Shown: positions 3,070-23,997 of the stretch, piece by piece | Layout of the letters: each line of letters opens with the position of its first letter | Position numbering within the stretch: position 1 is the stretch's first letter | Assembly (NCBI GenBank): GCA_031277915.1 | Contig: JAITLL010000068.1 | Location: forward strand, 1 to 40,864 | DNA: 40,864 nt | Source of the DNA: Acinetobacter sp. | GTDB taxonomy: Bacteria > Pseudomonadota > Gammaproteobacteria > Pseudomonadales > Moraxellaceae | Direction of reading: 5' to 3' | Position numbers and translations under genes: made by a program | The notes under the pieces: generated by a model | The model's input: the letters and a program-made list of their open reading frames with translations, nothing else | Databases searched by the model: none | Told to the model about the DNA's origin: nothing

Positions 3070-3098
3070 TTGACACCTATCAACTCTCAGATTATGCT
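3070..3098 (+). promoter_or_regulatory. Sigma-70 promoter of leader RNA copy 1
   Basis: TTGACA (3070-3075), a 17-bp spacer and TATGCT (3093-3098) form a near-consensus promoter. The predicted start, near 3105, falls at the first hairpin of the structured leader. The second leader has the same layout at 15653-15681. Confidence 0.8.
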
Positions 3099-3328
3099 TT
3101 GCGTGCTGGCCACATTGCCAGCCGGCTTTGACAGGCCGCGCTCAAGAACATTGAAAAAATTCATTTTTTTGATGTAGACTCACTCGTCCCCCTTTTTGTA
3201 GCGGTAGGACGGAAGGGGGACACCCTCGGGTGTGCTGGGTCTTGAGCCAGTCTGTCAACCCTCTTTCGTTCTGCCACCATAAGTCCAAATAAATGCTCTG
3301 GCAGAACTCCAATAATCAGGAGTTGGCT

Positions 3329-3385
3329 ATGCACATCCATTATTTCTTGGTACTCAGTGCCAAAAGTTATAACGACACAACTTAA
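3329..3385 (+). CDS. Leader peptide (18 aa) inside leader RNA copy 1
   Basis: ATG 3329 opens an 18-codon frame (MHIHYFLVLSAKSYNDTT). A GGAG ribosome-binding site at 3319-3322 is held in a hairpin with AACTCC at 3305-3310. The second leader has a peptide of identical length at 15917 with 12 of 18 residues conserved, including HIHYF and SYNDT. Conservation between diverged copies and a sequestered ribosome-binding site suggest it is translated and regulated. By analogy with orfX/icd behind the phage C4 RNA, translation of this frame could decide whether transcription reaches the TetR gene. That role is inference. Confidence 0.6.
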   Translation: MHIHYFLVLSAKSYNDTT

Positions 3386-3495
3386 AAATTTATAGCAGCT
3401 TGAACGCCGTAGGGTTTTCAGGCTTTAAGTCATTTTTACTTAAAACTTAGCAACAACAAAACTTGAGATGTGCCAAGCACCGTCTTGTGGCGTTG

Positions 3496-3535
3496 CTGTG
3501 CCTTTTTTTCTCCCAAAAAGGGCACAGTTTTTTTT
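3496..3535 (+). terminator. Intrinsic terminator between leader RNA and TetR gene
   Basis: The arms CTGTGCC plus T run (3496-3509) and AAAAAGGGCACAG (3515-3527) form a strong hairpin followed by eight T residues. It ends 40 bases before the TetR start codon. The second leader has the same hairpin at 16089-16128. Its position suggests attenuation of the TetR gene, with the leader RNA as the default product. Confidence 0.85.
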
Positions 3536-3575
3536 ATCTCATTTAGAAACAACAAGAATTTAAAAAGGTAAAACT

Positions 3576-4142
3576 ATGCAAAATTACTTAGAAACCTCTT
3601 CCAAAAAATTACAGGTTGTTCAAACCGCAATCCAACTCTTTATCACTCGTGGCTTTCATACTGCGGGTGTAGACCTGATTGCCAAGGAAGCCAAAATACC
3701 GAAAGCAACACTTTATAACTATTTCCACTCGAAAGAACGCTTAATTGAAATGTGCATCGCCTTTCAAAAAAGCCTGCTTAGAGAAGAAGTACTGGCCATT
3801 ATCTATGCAAATCGTTATTACACTTCAAAAGATAAACTCAAAGCAATTATTGTTTTACATACCAATTTAAACAGTTTGTACAACCTTTTACTTAAAGCGA
3901 TTTTTGAAATAAAGCTGCTTTATCCGCAGGCTTACCGCATGGCAGTTGAGTACCGAAAGTGGTTGCGCCATGAAATTTTTGACTTGATTTTTAGCGGAGA
4001 AACTCGTGAGCCAAAGTTCGATGCCAACATGGTTATAAATCTTATAGATGGCTTGATGCTACAGGTTTTAAGCTCTAACAGTTTGGATGAAAGGGATGAG
4101 GTGTTGGAGTGGTTTTGGGGAAGGTCGGGTGGAAAAATTTAA
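3576..4142 (+). CDS. TetR-family regulator, leader-RNA associated, copy 1
   Basis: This 188-residue protein has an N-terminal TetR helix-turn-helix at about residues 10-57: a helix around VVQTAIQLFITRGFHTAGVD, then KEAKIPKATLYNYFHSKE, which is the family signature. The remainder is the all-helical ligand and dimer domain, with LLKAIFEIKLLYPQAYRMAV in the middle. It is paralogous to the gene at 16170, and both begin with (Q/P)NYLET. A weak site (AAAAAGG) precedes ATG 3576. A terminator and about 470 bases of structured leader separate it from its promoter, so expression probably depends on antitermination. No adjacent gene reads in the same operon: the next frame is a truncated oxidoreductase about 300 bp away. 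Its ligand and targets are unknown; autoregulation or control of the leader RNA are possibilities. Confidence 0.88.
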   Translation: MQNYLETSSKKLQVVQTAIQLFITRGFHTAGVDLIAKEAKIPKATLYNYFHSKERLIEMCIAFQKSLLREEVLAIIYANRYYTSKDKLKAIIVLHTNLNSLYNLLLKAIFEIKLLYPQAYRMAVEYRKWLRHEIFDLIFSGETREPKFDANMVINLIDGLMLQVLSSNSLDERDEVLEWFWGRSGGKI

Positions 4143-15652: not shown

Positions 15653-15681
15653 TTGACTGAGAGAGAGTTGGGAACTATTCT
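15653..15681 (+). promoter_or_regulatory. Sigma-70 promoter of leader RNA copy 2
   Basis: TTGACT (15653-15658), a 17-bp spacer and TATTCT (15676-15681). The predicted start near 15688 falls at the first hairpin, exactly as in copy 1. Confidence 0.8.
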
Positions 15682-15916
15682 TTGCCTGCTGGCCACATTG
15701 CCAGTTGGTCGTCGCAGACCAGGAAAACAAAGTCGATATGCAAAATTCTTGTTTTGTGTGTCGGGAACTCGTTCGCCCCCTTTTTCTCTACGGTAGGGCG
15801 GAAGGGGGACACCTTCGGGTGTGCTGGTTCCTTTGTTTCCAGTCTGCGAACCCCCTTTCGTTCTGCCACCATAATTCTAATGTTTTGGCAGAACTCCCAA
15901 TAAAAAGGAGTTGGCT

Positions 15917-15973
15917 TTGCACATTCATTATTTCATGGCAGTCCTTGCCATAAGCTATAACGACACAGCTTAA
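15917..15973 (+). CDS. Leader peptide (18 aa) inside leader RNA copy 2
   Basis: TTG 15917 replaces the ATG of copy 1 and opens an 18-codon frame whose residues HIHYF, A and SYNDT are conserved. GGAG at 15907-15910 sits in a hairpin with ACTCC (15893-15897). The stop codon falls at the same distance as in copy 1. The weak start codon suggests low or conditional translation. A coding role is supported only by conservation between the two copies. Confidence 0.5.
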   Translation: MHIHYFMAVLAISYNDTA

Positions 15974-16088
15974 AAACTTTAAAGCAGCTTGATCACCAAT
16001 AGGTTTTCAGGCTTTAAGTCATTACGGCTCAAAAACTTGCATCAACAATAAAACTTGAGATGTGCCAAGCACAGTCTTTATGGCTTTG

Positions 16089-16128
16089 CTGTGCCTTTTT
16101 TTCTCCCAGAAAGGGCACAGGCTTTTTT
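16089..16128 (+). terminator. Intrinsic terminator before the second TetR gene
   Basis: The arms CTGTGCC plus T run (16089-16102) and AGAAAGGGCACAG (16108-16120) are followed by CTTTTTT. It ends about 42 bases before the TetR start, as in copy 1. Confidence 0.8.
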
Positions 16129-16169
16129 ATCTCATTTAGAAACAACAAGAATTTTATAATGGTAAAACT

Positions 16170-16727
16170 ATGCCAAATTATTTAGAAACACCTGCTAAAA
16201 AACTACACATTATCCGCACCGCTATCCGACTATTTACTACCTATGGATTTCACACAGCAGGCGTAGACCTGATTGCCAAAGAATCTAAAATTCCAAAAGC
16301 CACGCTTTACAACTACTTTCACTCAAAAGAGGGCTTGATTGAAATATGCCTCTTAGTTCAAAAAGATGCGCTTATGGAAAAAGTAACGGAGCTAATAGAA
16401 ACAACCCAATATTTCACTTTGACTGATAAACTCAAGCAAATCTATCTTTTACATGCAGATTTAAATGGCGCTTACTATTTATTGTTTAAAGCAATTTTTG
16501 AAATTAAAGCACTTTATCCTCACGCTTACCAAAGCGCTGTACGTTATAGACGCTGGCTAAAAAATGAGGTGTTCTGTCTCATGACAGAAACTAAGAAAGT
16601 GGCGTCCTATGCAGAAGCAGAGATTTTGGTATTTATGATAGATGGGGCAATTTTAGGGCTTCTAACTTCAGACAGAATTGAAGAACAAACTAAGTCGTTA
16701 AATTACTTTTTGGTGAGGGTTGCCTAA
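16170..16727 (+). CDS. TetR-family regulator, leader-RNA associated, copy 2
   Basis: This 185-residue paralogue of the gene at 3576 has a nearly identical DNA-binding region (GFHTAGVDLIAKE, KIPKATLYNYFHSKEGLIE at about 26-55) and a more diverged ligand domain (LLFKAIFEIKALYPHAYQSA). Because the recognition helix region is almost the same, the two proteins may bind the same operator while sensing different signals. It is preceded by the same 480-base leader and terminator. GGTAAAACT before ATG 16170 is conserved in both copies but is a weak ribosome-binding site. The gene downstream is on the other strand, so it is monocistronic. Its targets are unknown. Confidence 0.88.
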   Translation: MPNYLETPAKKLHIIRTAIRLFTTYGFHTAGVDLIAKESKIPKATLYNYFHSKEGLIEICLLVQKDALMEKVTELIETTQYFTLTDKLKQIYLLHADLNGAYYLLFKAIFEIKALYPHAYQSAVRYRRWLKNEVFCLMTETKKVASYAEAEILVFMIDGAILGLLTSDRIEEQTKSLNYFLVRVA

Positions 16728-18392: not shown

Positions 18393-18434
18393 ATAAAATA
18401 TGTTCGATTGTAACTCAAATTTATAAATAAAGTG

Positions 18435-21400
18435 ATGTTCAATAATATTTTTCAAATCTTAGAGAGTTTTGGTTTCCTCTCACAACATCGTTCGGTGTAT
18501 CTCCAGTTTTCAGATGCATCTCTGACTAGTCAGGTTTTTTTACAACGCATAGATGGGCAACATTCTCTTAATCAGGGCATGACAGCAGAGCTGATTTGTT
18601 TATCAACCAATGCCCATATTTCACTCAAGAAATTTATTGGAGTGCAGGTTGCTGTCGATCAGGTAACAGATCGAGGAAATTTTTTCCGTACTACAGGTAT
18701 TATTACTGAAGCATCGCAGGGGCAAAGTGATGGTGCTCTAACCTTATATAAGTTCACCATAAGTGATCCAACCTATCTCTGGCATAAACGCAGAAACAGC
18801 CGTGTGTTTATGAACAAGAGTATGAAAGAAATTAGTGAAATTCTGTTTCAAGAATGGCAGGGGAAAAGTCCATTATTTGCTTCGAGTCTGACTTTAGATT
18901 TGAGCGGGTTGAAACAGGAATACGACATACGTCCTTTCGTGATGCAGCTCAATGAAAGTGACTATGAATTTTTAACTCGTTTATGGCGTAGTGAAGGGAT
19001 TAATTGGTTAATTGATGAAGTTGAGCTGACTGTATCGAGTAATACAGATCATATTCAGCCACAAAAATTACGTCTGATTGATGATAATAACCAATATCAA
19101 GCGCTGGCAAGAAGAGCGATTCATTACCATAGAAGTCATGCAACTGAACAATTTGACAGCATGACTGGCCTCATGGCTAACCGTGGTTTACAGCCGACTT
19201 CTGTTTTTGTGCAGCGCTGGCAGTCAGATGTATTACAGCAAACAGATGGCGCTGGTAGTGTACAAAGTAAACATCAGCATAGCTCTAACCATGATAATCA
19301 AAGTTTAAACCTTGAAGATGCTTGGCACTTTAGTCCGGCATGGATGCAAGACTTAAAAGGTGAAGATGGAGCAACCTCAGCAAGTAACCAACAACTGGAA
19401 AAATTTAACCAGAATCTAAGTGCGTACTACGATGCCCAGTCTAAGCAATTTATTGCTCAAACCACGGTACGGGATACCCAAGTTGGCTACTGGTTTGAAC
19501 TGAATGAACATCCTGAAATTGATCTGCATGATGGCGCAGATAAAGAGTTTCTGATCATTGGTAAGCATTACTACAACCAAAATAACTTACCGAAAGACTT
19601 AAACCAGCAAATTCAAGCGTTAGTTCAACAAAGCCATTGGCAAGCTAGTCAGACAGACGAACGCCAAGGCAATGAACTGATTTTACAACGCCGTAATATT
19701 AAAGTGGTGCCTGCGTATCAACCTTTAGAGAATCGACCTAAAGCTTCTGTGCAACGTGCTCGAGTGGTGGGGCCAGAAGGTGAACAAATTTATGTTGATC
19801 AGTGGGGGCGTATAAAAGTTCGGTTCTTGTTTACCCGAGCCGATGACCATCGCCATGATGGTGGGGCTGGAAGTAGCGACAATGACACCGATTCGGCTTG
19901 GGTTGATGTTTTAACCCCGTGGGCTGGTGCAGGTTATGGTGCACGCTTCTTGCCACGTGTTGGTGAGATCGTTGTGATTGATTTCTTTGATGGCAACATC
20001 GACCGACCATTTGTGGTGGGACGTATTCACGAAGCAGAACGCCATCCGACCCAGTTTGACCAGAAAGGACAGCTACCAGACACTAAAAAGTTGAGTGGCA
20101 TTCGGTCAGAAGAAGTCGGCGGCAAAGGTTTTAACCAGTTACGTTTTGATGACACCACAGGACAAATTAGTGCCCAGCTACAAAGTAGCCATGCAGCAAG
20201 CCAACTCAACTTAGGTAACTTAAGCCATCCAAAAGACAGTGCGACAAGCGATGGCCGAGGTGAAGGCTTTGAACTTAGAACTGACCTGTGGGGTGCAGTC
20301 AGAGCTGGTAAAGGCTTACTTGTTAGCACCCATAAACAAGACCAAGCTCAAGCAACACATTTAGATACAGCCGATGCCAAGCAACAAATAGAAGGTGGCC
20401 TTAATAATGCTAAGGCACTCAGTGAAGTGGCTAAAAATCAGCAAACTGATCCATTGGAAATGCTTGAGAATCTAAAAACTTTCTTGGAACAAATCGAACA
20501 ACAAGATAAAGACAAAGCTGCCATATTTAAACAAGCTTTAATGATATTAACCGCTCCTAATAGCATTGCTATAGCCGGTAATGAAGACATACATCTCAGC
20601 GCAGATGGTCAGTTGAGTCAAACTGCTGGGGATAGTATTAACCTGACCACCCAGAAGAACCTGATTGCACATGCTCAAAATAAGGTGAGCTTGTTTGCCG
20701 CTCAACAAGGGGCGAGGCTCTATGCGGGCAAAGGAAAAGTTGAAATACAGGCACAAGCAGATGGAGCTGACTTTATTGCCCGTAAAGCTGTTCAGATTAT
20801 TTCAACAGAAGACAAAATTGAAATTAGTGCTTCTAAAGAAATCGTTATCACGGTGGGTGGATCTCAAATCAAGATTAATGGCTCGGGAATTTTCCCAGTT
20901 ACTGGTGGCAAGTTTGAGGTGAAGGCTGGGCAGCATTTGTTTATGGGGGGTAGCAGTGCTTCAAGTAACTTACCTGCTTTACCTCAGTTGAATATGCCTG
21001 CTAAAGAGCTTGAACTTAAGTACGTGTATGACGATTTAAAGCCAGTTGCTCAAGCACCTTATAAACTTATATTTCAGGATGGTACGACACAAGAAGGCAT
21101 TCTGGATAGTAATGGTTCTGCTAAAGTTCAAATTCCAGCCGATAAAATCCAGCCTAAGGTTTATTACGGTTTTAGCAATATGGAGGCTAAACCAGATCAG
21201 CCCAAACAGCAGAATAGTTTTAAAGATAAAAAAGTGATGAGTATTGTAGAAGCAGAACAATTGATCGAACAATATAACAAGCAAGAACTTGCCCACTTAT
21301 TAGATGAATATTTCCCTGATGAAATACAAGCCATGATCGATGGGCAGGGTATTGAGTACGATGATCATATTAATGATTATGTGGAAAAAGATTTAGAACA

Positions 21401-21497
21401 ACAAAATAATCCGGATGATGCTATTGCTGATCAAGCAGAAGAAATCCCATTGAATGAACAATCAACTCCACATTCTGGTTTTGGGGAGGGTATATGA
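18435..21497 (+). CDS. vgrG: Type VI secretion spike protein VgrG with C-terminal extension
   Basis: This 1020-residue protein has the gp27-like base (about 10-400, with YEFLTRLWRSEGINW), the gp5-like OB-fold (about 440-530, QWGRIKVRF and GYGARFLPRVGEIVVIDFF) and a DUF2345 beta-helix region (about 700-835, LTAPNSIAIAGNEDIHLSAD). It ends with a transthyretin-like segment (about 858-918, PYKLIFQDGTTQEGILDSNG) and a long acidic tail. Such tails recruit cognate effectors. ATG 18435 is preferred over GTG 18432. Its end overlaps the effector start by four bases. It forms the tip of the T6SS needle; the other secretion genes are not in this window, so this is an orphan vgrG island. Confidence 0.95.
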   Translation: MFNNIFQILESFGFLSQHRSVYLQFSDASLTSQVFLQRIDGQHSLNQGMTAELICLSTNAHISLKKFIGVQVAVDQVTDRGNFFRTTGIITEASQGQSDGALTLYKFTISDPTYLWHKRRNSRVFMNKSMKEISEILFQEWQGKSPLFASSLTLDLSGLKQEYDIRPFVMQLNESDYEFLTRLWRSEGINWLIDEVELTVSSNTDHIQPQKLRLIDDNNQYQALARRAIHYHRSHATEQFDSMTGLMANRGLQPTSVFVQRWQSDVLQQTDGAGSVQSKHQHSSNHDNQSLNLEDAWHFSPAWMQDLKGEDGATSASNQQLEKFNQNLSAYYDAQSKQFIAQTTVRDTQVGYWFELNEHPEIDLHDGADKEFLIIGKHYYNQNNLPKDLNQQIQALVQQSHWQASQTDERQGNELILQRRNIKVVPAYQPLENRPKASVQRARVVGPEGEQIYVDQWGRIKVRFLFTRADDHRHDGGAGSSDNDTDSAWVDVLTPWAGAGYGARFLPRVGEIVVIDFFDGNIDRPFVVGRIHEAERHPTQFDQKGQLPDTKKLSGIRSEEVGGKGFNQLRFDDTTGQISAQLQSSHAASQLNLGNLSHPKDSATSDGRGEGFELRTDLWGAVRAGKGLLVSTHKQDQAQATHLDTADAKQQIEGGLNNAKALSEVAKNQQTDPLEMLENLKTFLEQIEQQDKDKAAIFKQALMILTAPNSIAIAGNEDIHLSADGQLSQTAGDSINLTTQKNLIAHAQNKVSLFAAQQGARLYAGKGKVEIQAQADGADFIARKAVQIISTEDKIEISASKEIVITVGGSQIKINGSGIFPVTGGKFEVKAGQHLFMGGSSASSNLPALPQLNMPAKELELKYVYDDLKPVAQAPYKLIFQDGTTQEGILDSNGSAKVQIPADKIQPKVYYGFSNMEAKPDQPKQQNSFKDKKVMSIVEAEQLIEQYNKQELAHLLDEYFPDEIQAMIDGQGIEYDDHINDYVEKDLEQQNNPDDAIADQAEEIPLNEQSTPHSGFGEGI

Positions 21498-22927
21498 GTA
21501 CAGCCGTTGCAAAATCACCAGCTAAAACCATTCGAGTCACCCAAAAAGGGGAGCAATCGGCAGCCGACTGGATAAAAGGTGTATTAGACGGGAGTGGATC
21601 AAGCCCGGCACAAATTATTGTGGCTGTGGTGATTGGTTGTATCCCTTTTGTTGGGCAGGGTGTCGATGTTGGTAATGTGATCGTTTCAATTGTCAAAATT
21701 GCAGAAAACCCGAATAACAAAGATAACTGGTTTGATCTGGTCTTTAATTTAATTGCATTTGTTCCTGTTGCAGGAGATGGACTTAAAATTGTATTTAAGC
21801 AATTGCGCTCGGGTAAAGCGATGGGGGCAATATTAGATGCAATCCCAAGTAAAACCATGCGTGGCAATGTTGAAAAATGGTTTCGTAACTTAAACTGGAA
21901 TGCTTATACCAAAGAGTTACAGACCACCAGTAATAAAATGATTGATGGCTTAATTGATGTTTTCGATAGCTGGATGACTAGAGCTGTCTTGGGACAGGCC
22001 CGATTAAAAACGCTTGTGATGCAACTGAGACAAATGAAAAAAGTTGCGAACAAGCAAATTGAAATGGTGATGAAAGACCTACAATTAGCCCATAAAAAAG
22101 CTTTGGCGACACCGTATCCGAATACCACAGCGAAGGCACCCATCCATACATCGGCTTCAAAGAAACCTAATTCTACTTCTGCTCCTCGTACACAGCAAAA
22201 TGGTCAGGTTCTTAAAAATACCAGTGGTAATACTGCGAAGACAGGAAGCAAGAATACATCAACCAAAAGAGAATCAAAAAAGCGTAGTAATCAGGAGTTA
22301 GGTTCGGGTGGTGAGCACATCACGGATTATTATTTTGTGAAGCGGAAAAAGAACCGTAGCAAAATTAATAATAATGGTGTGCTGTATGAATATCACGATA
22401 CTGGACATAACGGTATTGACCATGTCTGGCATAGCAATAGTATTGGGCATAAGTACCGAATTACCGATAGTAAATCGACGAATTTAGCTAGCCATAAAAA
22501 ACTGATGACCCCTAAAGCGGCAATGGCTGCTTTAAGGATGGGGTTAGATGTCTATATGAAACCTGATCAGGAAAGCAAAGCAAAACGGTCAGTAGGTACA
22601 ACTGTGGCTGATGGTGTGCAAATGTCACATCTTTGGATTGCGAAGAAAATTGATAGTGCAAAGCTTACTGTTGAGCATAGAAGAAAGTTAATTGCTCAGA
22701 TTCAGGCTTGGGAGCGAGTTAAATTTAAAGCAAGTACTGAAAAAAGAGTAGGTAAAACAGTAGCTGTACAGTGTCCTTATGATCGGAGCTTGGTTACGAT
22801 TACGGGAAATCTATTTGATCACCACAGTCAATGTAAAGGGCTGGATAAACCGAAATGTAGCCGTACAGTGACTGCACATGCGATTACTTTAGAATTTGTA
22901 ATGCCAAATGAAATGCTGGAGCGTTAA
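21494..22927 (+). CDS. T6SS effector with PoNe-type DNase domain
   Basis: This 477-residue protein has an N-terminal delivery region with a hydrophobic GQ-D segment (residues 38-70, AQIIVAVVIGCIPFVGQGVD), a helical linker and a basic Ser/Thr/Lys-rich hinge (about 205-275). The C-terminal toxin starts at about residue 280. It carries GIDHVW with D309 and ITDSKS with D325 and K327, a PD-(D/E)xK arrangement, and then QMSHLW, which matches the downstream Q-x-S-x-x-W motif of such nucleases. Together with the PoNi-type gene two bases downstream, this identifies a PoNe DNase that should degrade DNA in competitor cells. The start overlaps vgrG (ATGA), so the two are co-translated and the effector is presumably loaded on that VgrG. 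Confidence 0.85.
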   Translation: MSTAVAKSPAKTIRVTQKGEQSAADWIKGVLDGSGSSPAQIIVAVVIGCIPFVGQGVDVGNVIVSIVKIAENPNNKDNWFDLVFNLIAFVPVAGDGLKIVFKQLRSGKAMGAILDAIPSKTMRGNVEKWFRNLNWNAYTKELQTTSNKMIDGLIDVFDSWMTRAVLGQARLKTLVMQLRQMKKVANKQIEMVMKDLQLAHKKALATPYPNTTAKAPIHTSASKKPNSTSAPRTQQNGQVLKNTSGNTAKTGSKNTSTKRESKKRSNQELGSGGEHITDYYFVKRKKNRSKINNNGVLYEYHDTGHNGIDHVWHSNSIGHKYRITDSKSTNLASHKKLMTPKAAMAALRMGLDVYMKPDQESKAKRSVGTTVADGVQMSHLWIAKKIDSAKLTVEHRRKLIAQIQAWERVKFKASTEKRVGKTVAVQCPYDRSLVTITGNLFDHHSQCKGLDKPKCSRTVTAHAITLEFVMPNEMLER

Positions 22928-22929
22928 GA

Positions 22930-23997
22930 ATGTCAATAACAGTCAATGATCAAGAAATAGATTGGCAAAGATGGCTAGAGCTGGAAATACATGGAAATGA
23001 TGTATATAGAGATTCTTTACTTGACGAAGAAATGTATCATGATCGATTTGATACATTTGTGAATGGATTGTATTCGGTTACTGATGGTTTTAGTAATTAT
23101 AAGAATGAAAAAAAGTTTGGTGGTTATATTGCAGCAGGTAGAAGAAGAGTCATTGATGCTCTAGATTTAATGTCTTTGCAGTATTCTGCTGGTGGGGATA
23201 TTAGCTTTATTAAAGAGCTTTATCCTTACTTACTACATTGGACTGAAGAATATGCTGAAACCAGTCATTTATATAATTTAAGCCCTGATGCTGGTGGACG
23301 TTATGTCTGGCATATCAGCTTAGGTACAGAAGATTATTGGTATATTGCTTTACGTTTGATCTGTTTCGGTTTGTTGACTGGCTATGCAGACCAAATGGCA
23401 CGTATTATGTCGATTATTGACTATGTTGAAGCTACTCCTGAAGGGCAGGAGAAAGATGGTTTAATTGAGCGTCTGGTTGCCCCATTTGTAGCAGACCGTG
23501 GAACTCTATCAGGTGAAGCTAGAAGACATTTGCCTTATCGAAAGTTAATCAAGGTGTTTAATGCTGCGCCTGAGCAACGCCCAGCTTTAATACTGCAATA
23601 TTTAGAAAGCTGGTATGAGGCGAGTCGTAGAGAACCTTATCATGATCAACATCCACAAACGGATATAAATGACGGTTTCACATATTACGGTTATTGGTCA
23701 TGGGAAGTAGCAGCAGTGACATGGCTGTTAGAAATAGATGATACTTTATACCGTGAGCATGAGTTCTATCCAAAAGATTTAGTAGATTTTGCGCGTACAC
23801 AATCAAATGCAGTTCCAGAAGAGCAACAGCCAGAACGTATAAAAGTAAAAGGTGGTGAAGCTTGTATTAAAACAGGTTATTGGATTACTCCAGCTAAACC
23901 TGATACGCGACTTTATTTTACGCAAGGTGCAATCTTGCCGATCCTTTCAGAAACGGATTGGGGTGAAGTGTATTGGTACTGGGATGGTGAGCAATAA
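22930..23997 (+). CDS. PoNi-type immunity protein (DUF1910/DUF1911)
   Basis: This 355-residue cytoplasmic protein has an N-terminal helical DUF1910-like half (about 25-135, with a RRRVIDALDLMSLQYSAG-type helix) and a C-terminal DUF1911 half. The C-terminal half is marked by YYGYWSWEVAAVTWLLEIDD, FYPKDLVDFAR, GYWITPA and the final DWGEVYWYWDG. The gene starts two bases after the DNase effector stop, the usual toxin-immunity arrangement. It should neutralise the PoNe domain. Two related genes lie downstream at 27541 and 28689, so the island accumulates this immunity family. Confidence 0.9.
   Translation: MSITVNDQEIDWQRWLELEIHGNDVYRDSLLDEEMYHDRFDTFVNGLYSVTDGFSNYKNEKKFGGYIAAGRRRVIDALDLMSLQYSAGGDISFIKELYPYLLHWTEEYAETSHLYNLSPDAGGRYVWHISLGTEDYWYIALRLICFGLLTGYADQMARIMSIIDYVEATPEGQEKDGLIERLVAPFVADRGTLSGEARRHLPYRKLIKVFNAAPEQRPALILQYLESWYEASRREPYHDQHPQTDINDGFTYYGYWSWEVAAVTWLLEIDDTLYREHEFYPKDLVDFARTQSNAVPEEQQPERIKVKGGEACIKTGYWITPAKPDTRLYFTQGAILPILSETDWGEVYWYWDGEQ

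Follow-up and report, generated by a model that had tools for sequence, protein, structure and literature searches.

In phage P1, the C4 antisense RNA blocks translation of icd, which leads to Rho-dependent termination of transcription before ant. What does an RNA of this type control when it precedes a TetR-family regulator in an Acinetobacter chromosome? The question is raised by a leader found in a 40,864-nucleotide stretch of Acinetobacter sp. DNA (contig JAITLL010000068.1, assembly GCA_031277915.1), which was analysed as a whole and is called the window. A sequence-only reading of this DNA had described a strong promoter, a multi-helix RNA of probable C4 type, a short ORF with a hidden ribosome-binding site and a strong terminator preceding a TetR gene.

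C4 modules in the window and across Acinetobacter

The first module of the window spans positions 3070-4142 and is made of the following parts, all on the plus strand:

3070..3098, plus: sigma-70-like promoter TTGACA-17-TATGCT, 10/12 matches
3092..3142, plus: region resembling the c4-a1b1 upstream target (RF03163), 32.0 bits, E 1.2e-6, below the curated cut-off of 46.7 bits though in the expected place and on the expected strand
3106..3121, plus: hairpin CTGGCCACATTGCCAG with the loop CACAUU, corresponding to 'Region 1' of the Group 1 sRNAs in the available text of Weiss 2016 (PMC5320573)
3127..3134, plus: TTTGACAG, counterpart of P1 a1, complementary to CTGTCAA of the C4 RNA
3140..3147, plus: GCTCAAGA, specificity site upstream of C4, corresponding to b1 of P1 and complementary to the loop of the C4 hairpin
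3186..3197, plus: strand that could form an alternative, anti-C4 hairpin with the 5' strand of the C4 stem
3197..3281, plus: C4 antisense RNA (RF01695), 59.3 bits, E 4.1e-9 for the window, cut-off 45
3203, plus: putative RNase P-type 5' end of the C4 RNA at GGT, after the GGW rule given in the available text of PMC5320573
3239..3246, plus: GUCUUGAG, loop of the C4 hairpin and thereby this module's pairing code
3268..3276, plus: GTTCTGCCA, 3' strand of the C4 outer stem, with 3299-3307 as alternative partner
3299..3307, plus: TGGCAGAAC, pre-SD strand, competed for by the C4 3' strand and the SD hairpin
3305..3324, plus: cis hairpin AACTCC...GGAGTT over the Shine-Dalgarno sequence (SD AGGAG at 3318-3322, sequestering AACTCC at 3305-3310)
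3329..3385, plus: short ORF of 18 codons (MHIHYFLVLSAKSYNDTT), ATG at 3329, in the position of P1 icd
3495..3528, plus: intrinsic-terminator-like hairpin, 14 pairs then a T run, before the TetR start
3576..4142, plus: TetR-family regulator, 188 aa, Pfam TetR_N E 1.7e-13

The C4 identity, previously deduced from the letters of the leader, was confirmed by Infernal with the Rfam C4 model, whose match at 3197-3281 also accounts for the multi-helix RNA. The short ORF was found as described, with its AGGAG lying opposite AACTCC, as were the terminator-like stem with its T run and the TetR gene after the leader. Terminator-like sites in the first-module region numbered 4, against 1.9 in shuffled sequences. 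The claim of a strong promoter held in part: the TTGACA-17-TATGCT element is present at 3070, but taken alone it does not exceed chance, because the scan returned fewer promoter-like sites in this region than the shuffles did (4 versus 6.7). Inspection of the alignment by eye revealed a TTGAC and a -10-like element at the same place in most TetR leaders of the genome that carries the window, and a comparable short ORF was likewise seen in most of them. Also by eye, competing short pairings were noted in the alignment at 3468-3528 (GTGCC-GCAC, GCACAG-CTGTGC or similar, and CTGTGCC-GGGCACAG), an arrangement before tetR that resembles a trp-like attenuator. Directly upstream of the module, a 107-residue ORF (2462-2785) gave a partial DDE transposase domain match.

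At about 15653-16727 the parts are repeated in this order in a second module, which comprises:

15653..15681, plus: promoter-like TTGACT-17-TATTCT (by eye)
15725..15732, plus: upstream specificity site AAACAAAG
15786..15873, plus: C4 RNA, 74.5 bits, loop UUCCUUUGUUU at 15828-15838
16088..16121 (approximate), plus: terminator-like hairpin (by eye)
16170..16727, plus: TetR-family regulator, 185 aa, 54% identical to the first TetR

Both C4 matches of the window have a TetR gene about 300 bases downstream. Downstream of the second module, the interval 18432-23997 holds a VgrG-like type VI secretion gene, a Pfam-unmatched gene and a PoNe-immunity-like gene.

At least one C4 match was found in 128 of 150 Acinetobacter genomes, and 15 genomes had 19 or more; the window's own genome (G000) has 26, of which 25 are above the cut-off. 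We fetched 198 of the 205 elements present in 13 genomes (left out were one each in G053, G097, G003 and G004 and three in G024) and classified the gene after each C4 using HMMs made from the own-genome copies. TetR genes followed 124 elements, small lipoprotein-like genes 37 and other genes 34, and three elements lay near contig ends. Upstream members of tandem C4 pairs were counted with the TetR gene that follows; without them, 111 of the 122 usable TetR-class elements remain. Searching four genomes with the window TetR separated its relatives into two distinct score groups, at 120 bits or more and at 73 bits or less. Close paralogs (14-20 per genome) were C4-linked in 61 of 65 cases, namely 17/17, 14/14, 13/14 and, in the own draft genome, 17/20, as opposed to none of the 26 proteins in the lower group. 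The proposal that C4 here controls a chromosomal TetR gene can therefore be extended from one locus to a general association. Two of the three unlinked close paralogs of the own genome are cut at contig ends; the third (G000:C40:4298-4831, 63% identity) has no upstream Rfam C4 match and is the sole own-genome case to which contig ends offer no explanation. About 17 C4-TetR copies are present in this genome, with pairing codes that are almost all different. Among 60 C4-linked TetRs from the four genomes, the helix-turn-helix (residues 31-62) is the most conserved part, with a mean pairwise identity of 0.69 as compared to 0.46-0.55 elsewhere.

Several other arrangements were observed. A second family linked to C4 follows the 37 elements of the lipoprotein class; its proteins have about 94 residues and, judged by eye from an N-terminal signal and a cysteine, resemble small lipoproteins. 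Own-genome loci of this family include:

G000:C50:88785 (L042)
G000:C29:28223 (L047)
G000:C8:81854 (L051)
G000:C54:5447 (L052)
G000:C20:76943 (L057)

Elements L165, L166, L168, L172, L178 and L183 stand before other proteins that appear lipoprotein-like by eye, often with a full P1-like plan. Four successive C4 RNAs, three of them head to tail with a spacing of about 85 bases, precede a single TetR gene in L066 (G083:C1:255601-256181), an array that resembles s067-s069, three adjoining short Group 1 sRNAs in the available text of Weiss 2016 (PMC5320573). Canonical-looking modules were also seen on the Acinetobacter plasmids pGFJ1 and pRIVM_C010761_4 (L062 and L063, one replicon cluster), before a hypothetical protein or a CAP-domain protein; L062 carries a second C4 on the opposite strand. 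The 12.7-kb A. baumannii plasmid pRAB94-3 (L064) has a canonical-looking C4-TetR module adjoining a TonB-dependent receptor gene, so that the module can be mobile. Module matches were returned for 32 phage-collection and 22 plasmid-collection records, all named Acinetobacter. The entries named Acinetobacter phage MD-2021a, and several among the plasmids that are 0.5-4.1 Mb long, seem to be bacterial chromosomes filed in the wrong collection, and matches there were for this reason rejected as proof of a phage or plasmid home.

A pairing code shared by the C4 loop and its upstream site

The C4 hairpin loop is 6-12 bases long, and most loops are complementary to a site in their own leader, 40-110 bases upstream of the C4 RNA. 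A loop-matching upstream site scoring at least 15 was found in 102 of the 122 TetR-class elements, the remaining 20 falling below this score. When the 53 distinct TetR-class loops were compared with all sites, the own upstream site was best or tied-best for 39 (34 of 52 in a separate run), and none of 5000 permutations reached the observed mean match. These permutations carry no control for relatedness, and the stronger test is a comparison of syntenic loci.

From 146 direct reciprocal-best syntenic pairs, 28 were dropped (tandem, no parsed loop or near a locus end), leaving 118. The loop differed in 77 of these pairs: 55/67 in the TetR class, 16/40 in the lipoprotein class and 6/11 in the remainder. 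In all 77, the loop fitted its own site better than the site swapped in from the partner, including 14 of 14 pairs in which both flanks match. Counting all pairs inside syntenic groups gave the same picture, with loops differing in 98 of 149 pairs and the own site fitting better in 98/98. In this all-pairs count, different-loop pairs were somewhat more diverged outside the code, with an identity after the C4 RNA of 0.79 versus 0.86, but 44 of the 98 different-loop pairs were still at least 85% identical over the 100 bases after C4. At one lipoprotein-class locus, the loop TTTCTTAGGTA was kept in 7/7 genomes. The C4 loop and its own upstream site change together.

The loops are not strictly unique. 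In seven genomes, 69 distinct loops were counted among 149, every genome had at least one shared pair, and in the own genome one loop is common to two elements. Duplicate loop pairs within genomes numbered 13, against 27.8 expected from shuffling among the seven genomes (0/5000). This low duplication is suggestive of selection against cross-talk; as proof of such selection it was rejected, because inheritance of loops at a common locus raises the number expected under this null.

One A. baumannii locus indicates how codes are replaced. It has methionine synthase and flavin reductase genes as left neighbours; four strain records are near-identical there and share one loop. In a fifth record (L226) the left flank is shared (96-99%) and the TetR is 85-100% identical, but the loop is another one, with a matching site of its own. 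Between the upstream site and the C4 start the identity is only 28-45%, and it falls once more between the short ORF and the terminator. Short patches rather than whole modules have therefore been exchanged. Immediately upstream of its module L226 also has two further C4 matches, and its right flank differs.

Two architectures and a proposed switch

The annotation of the P1 record gives the order a1, b1, C4, a2, b2, and its C4 begins at GGT, which matches the 5' end proposed for the window copy. (In the available text of Weiss 2016, the C4 loop and its upstream partner are named a' and a1; they correspond to b' and b1 of the P1 record.) The window module shares its basic layout with P1/P7: a promoter and an upstream target that can pair with the C4 loop come first, the C4 fold next, and a short ORF and a regulator after it. 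Unlike in P1/P7, modules of the window type control a TetR gene and occur in many copies per genome with nearly unique loops. No antirepressor gene was found downstream of the window C4, a TetR_N protein being in its place. At the ribosome-binding site of the window short ORF, nothing resembling a2 was found when the downstream a2b2 target was sought, and the SD has just a short wobble match nearby; the copy has instead the cis SD hairpin and the terminator-like hairpin before the regulator.

Both architectures occur in the TetR class. The full P1 plan, with upstream and downstream loop-matching sites and an a2-like sequence (TTTGACAG or TTTAGCAG) just after C4, was found in 26 of 122 elements, tandem members included. 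In 67, including the window copy, the upstream site is accompanied by neither a matching downstream site nor an a2-like sequence, and the SD hairpin pattern (present in 71 of the 122) takes their place; 29 are mixed or degenerate. The full plan was found in 9/37 elements of the lipoprotein class and in 12 of the 22 'other' elements with a parsed loop, with 4 more lacking the a2-like pattern only (12 of these 34 elements have no parsed loop). Judged by its sequence, the window copy is a derived type of C4 module without the P1 downstream site. Some TetR copies of the own genome (C77 and C64; window 15786-15873, L041 and L043) combine canonical downstream sites with an additional, weaker C4 immediately upstream, an arrangement that may be ancestral.

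Covariation was consistent with alternative folds. The C4 stem strands covary across copies (0/5000 permutations), and a three-stem C4 fold was recovered in the alignment. The C4 3' strand also covaries with the pre-SD strand, both in TetR leaders (2/5000, 8 distinct sequences) and in the others (0/5000, 18 distinct). For the anti-C4 hairpin, the signal was weak in TetR leaders (60/5000) and clear in the others (0/5000). We compared folds in 16 of the 19 own-genome TetR-class elements (3 were dropped by the pattern), with the pairs enforced in both states. The predicted energy was lower for the site-loop duplex in 14 of the 16, lower for the C4 stem in one and equal in one, with a mean difference of 3.6 kcal/mol. 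Predicted opening of the SD averaged 0.23 in the duplex fold and 0.07 in the other, low in both; it was higher in 14/16 and did not rise in 2.

We judge it slightly more probable than not that the locus is a co-opted C4 module, with TetR in place of the phage antirepressor, that forms a double-negative, locus-specific switch, and that its genes are probably the TTTRs discussed below. We infer from the leader sequences a mechanism in which C4 would act in trans to keep the locus OFF and a cis duplex would turn it ON. A single promoter would produce a leader containing the upstream target, the C4 RNA, the short ORF with its hidden start and the terminator-like hairpin, followed by tetR. In the OFF state, mature C4 released from earlier transcripts by an RNase P-type cut (GGT, 3203) would cover the upstream site of a new transcript. 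The C4 of that transcript would then fold, its 3' strand would be locked in the stem and the SD hairpin at 3305-3324 would stay closed. The short ORF would remain untranslated, and transcription would end before tetR, through Rho or at the hairpin 3495-3528, yielding more C4. In the ON state, with C4 scarce, the upstream site would pair in cis with the loop of the nascent C4, which would not form. The freed C4 strand would pair with the pre-SD strand and open the start, so that tetR would be read and no C4 made. Such a double-negative loop could be bistable. Either termination coupling as in P1 icd-ant or the hairpin at 3495-3528 would serve the tetR leader, and attenuation there by a C4-type RNA, as had been suggested at the outset, is plausible. 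With loop codes that are private to almost every copy, the loci would switch independently of one another. Not all copies may work alike, since 20 of the 122 TetR-class elements show no good upstream match and 26 retain downstream sites like those of P1.

An unlikely reading, although it fares best among the alternatives, is that C4 acts as in P1, binding in trans to the short ORF's ribosome-binding site (the a2b2 target downstream) and silencing tetR by polarity. The 26 full-plan elements and the order of sites in the P1 record agree with it. In the 'other' class, the downstream site was cognate-first for 10 of 12 loops, and the mean cognate downstream score of the TetR class exceeded all 5000 permutations. 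However, the downstream site of the TetR class was cognate-first for only 10/52 loops (median rank 12), and it is absent from the window copy and 66 other elements. Downstream duplex energies were significant in 2 of 5 genomes but not in the other 3, the own genome included. The SD region is nearly constant in the own TetR leaders while their loops vary, and the downstream site was on this ground rejected as the main target of the window copy; for canonical copies it was retained as an alternative.

A further possibility, to which we give a small probability, is attenuation by a leader peptide: the progress of the ribosome on the short ORF would set the terminator, and C4 would be a relic without a part in pairing. 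Most own-genome TetR leaders have, by eye, both the short ORF and the terminator-like hairpin, the SD-hairpin pattern is common in the class, and azithromycin, a translation inhibitor, raised the activity of the ABUW_1645 iModulon according to the available text of PMC10878099. Yet a relic would not keep its loop and upstream site complementary through repeated changes, and the stop codon of the ORF lies about 110 nt before the terminator stem.

Slightly less probable still is that the C4 RNAs serve the chromosome as a bank of immunity against incoming C4-controlled phages and plasmids, with TetR as a passenger or sensor; an anti-phage role of C4-like sRNAs is raised in the available text of Weiss 2016 (PMC5320573). 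Such a bank would accord with the turnover of loops at syntenic loci, with the modules on plasmids that look canonical by eye, and with the finding that 7 of 59 distinct TetR-class loops also occur before non-TetR genes. Against it, the loops follow their own cis site (77/77), and anti-SD-like letters were found in 13/59 TetR-class loops, versus 7/18 in the lipoprotein class and 10/15 in the 'other' class, so that most TetR-class loops would be ill suited to covering an SD. When viral contigs were scanned, in a search covering close TetR relatives only, one was confirmed, at a contig edge with its leader beyond view.

That the modules are decayed, functionless phage remnants before unrelated TetR genes is hardly credible: C4 is a phage RNA family and a partial DDE transposase-domain ORF lies just upstream of the window copy, but loop and site change jointly across 13 genomes, the C4 stem covaries (0/5000), and homologous RNAs are highly expressed and apparently processed in the available text of PMC5320573.

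Probable relation to the opaque/translucent switch of A. baumannii

In AB5075, 21 C4-like sRNAs of Group 1 are described in the available text of Weiss 2016 (PMC5320573); they are strongly expressed, and GGW is their apparent cleavage site. With its Region 1 hairpin, C4 core, GGW site and about 20 copies per genome, the window copy is of this kind. In that text, Group 1 is treated as sRNAs without proven targets, and neither a role in TetR leaders nor matching upstream sites are described; the genes flanking the sRNAs are referred to its Table S1. One Group 1-like sequence bears the annotation ABUW_0220 there, which is two locus numbers away from ABUW_0222, a TTTR.

The TTTRs are 11 TetR-type regulators of AB5075, with one pseudogene, that are alike in their helix-turn-helix (Perez-Varela 2022, PMC9802203, available text). 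Overexpression of any of the 11 turns opaque cells translucent, and during natural switching four of them are activated stochastically. By qPCR, no autoregulation was seen in the three TTTRs tested, and no cross-regulation save two exceptions. When TTTR reporters were introduced by transformation into pooled translucent variants, the fraction of colonies with the reporter on was 18-94%, according to the TTTR; from these locus-specific fractions the state looks trans-acting or diffusible and locus-specific, which C4 would fit. The sRNA SrvS tunes the switch, and the cause of stochastic activation is otherwise left open in the same text. As TTTRs vary in on-frequency and an unrelated sRNA alters it, C4 cannot be the whole story. 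The C4 leader is not named in the available text of this paper, and 'antisense' has no match in its main text.

The 11 TTTRs and one pseudogene reported for AB5075 compare with 14-20 close paralogs per genome in our set, and in the C4-linked TetRs, too, conservation is highest in the helix-turn-helix. To relate the two groups, TTTR locus numbers were scaled to kilobases with a two-parameter fit and compared with the positions of the AB5075 Group 1 sRNAs. All 12 TTTRs lay within 25.3 kb of a Group 1 sRNA, at a mean distance of 10.8 kb; random sets averaged 86 kb (0/400 as good) and sets of other sRNAs 89 kb (0/200). Eight of the 12 were within 15 kb, a count equalled by the best random set (random mean 2.7). 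On locus numbers and family structure rather than sequence, the C4-linked TetR genes are probably the A. baumannii TTTRs.

C4 sRNAs and the TetR switch are each already known, separately. A literature search that took in few subscription journals and no supplements, and included the available texts of PMC5320573, PMC9802203, PMC2864571, PMC12802169, PMC11472050 and PMC10878099, returned no paper linking C4 RNAs to the TTTR switch. Within the literature searched, the following appear to be new: the leader role, the TTTR link, the private code that coevolves and is exchanged in patches, the derived module type and the switch proposed here.

The C4 RNA may be the missing molecular switch behind random on/off colony switching in A. 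baumannii. More tentatively, and with somewhat less than an even chance in our view, Acinetobacter of the baumannii group would hold a bank of 14-20 RNA-coded memory switches, in which private loop-site codes make the states of the TetR loci self-sustaining, random and inherited without DNA change. The codes would spread by exchange of site-to-C4 patches between loci and strains, and would be kept different to avoid cross-talk. For this hospital germ, a candidate can thus be named for what sets each switch TetR on or off, an RNA with one code per gene, and the base changes expected to break or restore control can be predicted from the loop-site code. If true, a phage immunity RNA would have been turned into a family of orthogonal chromosomal switches.
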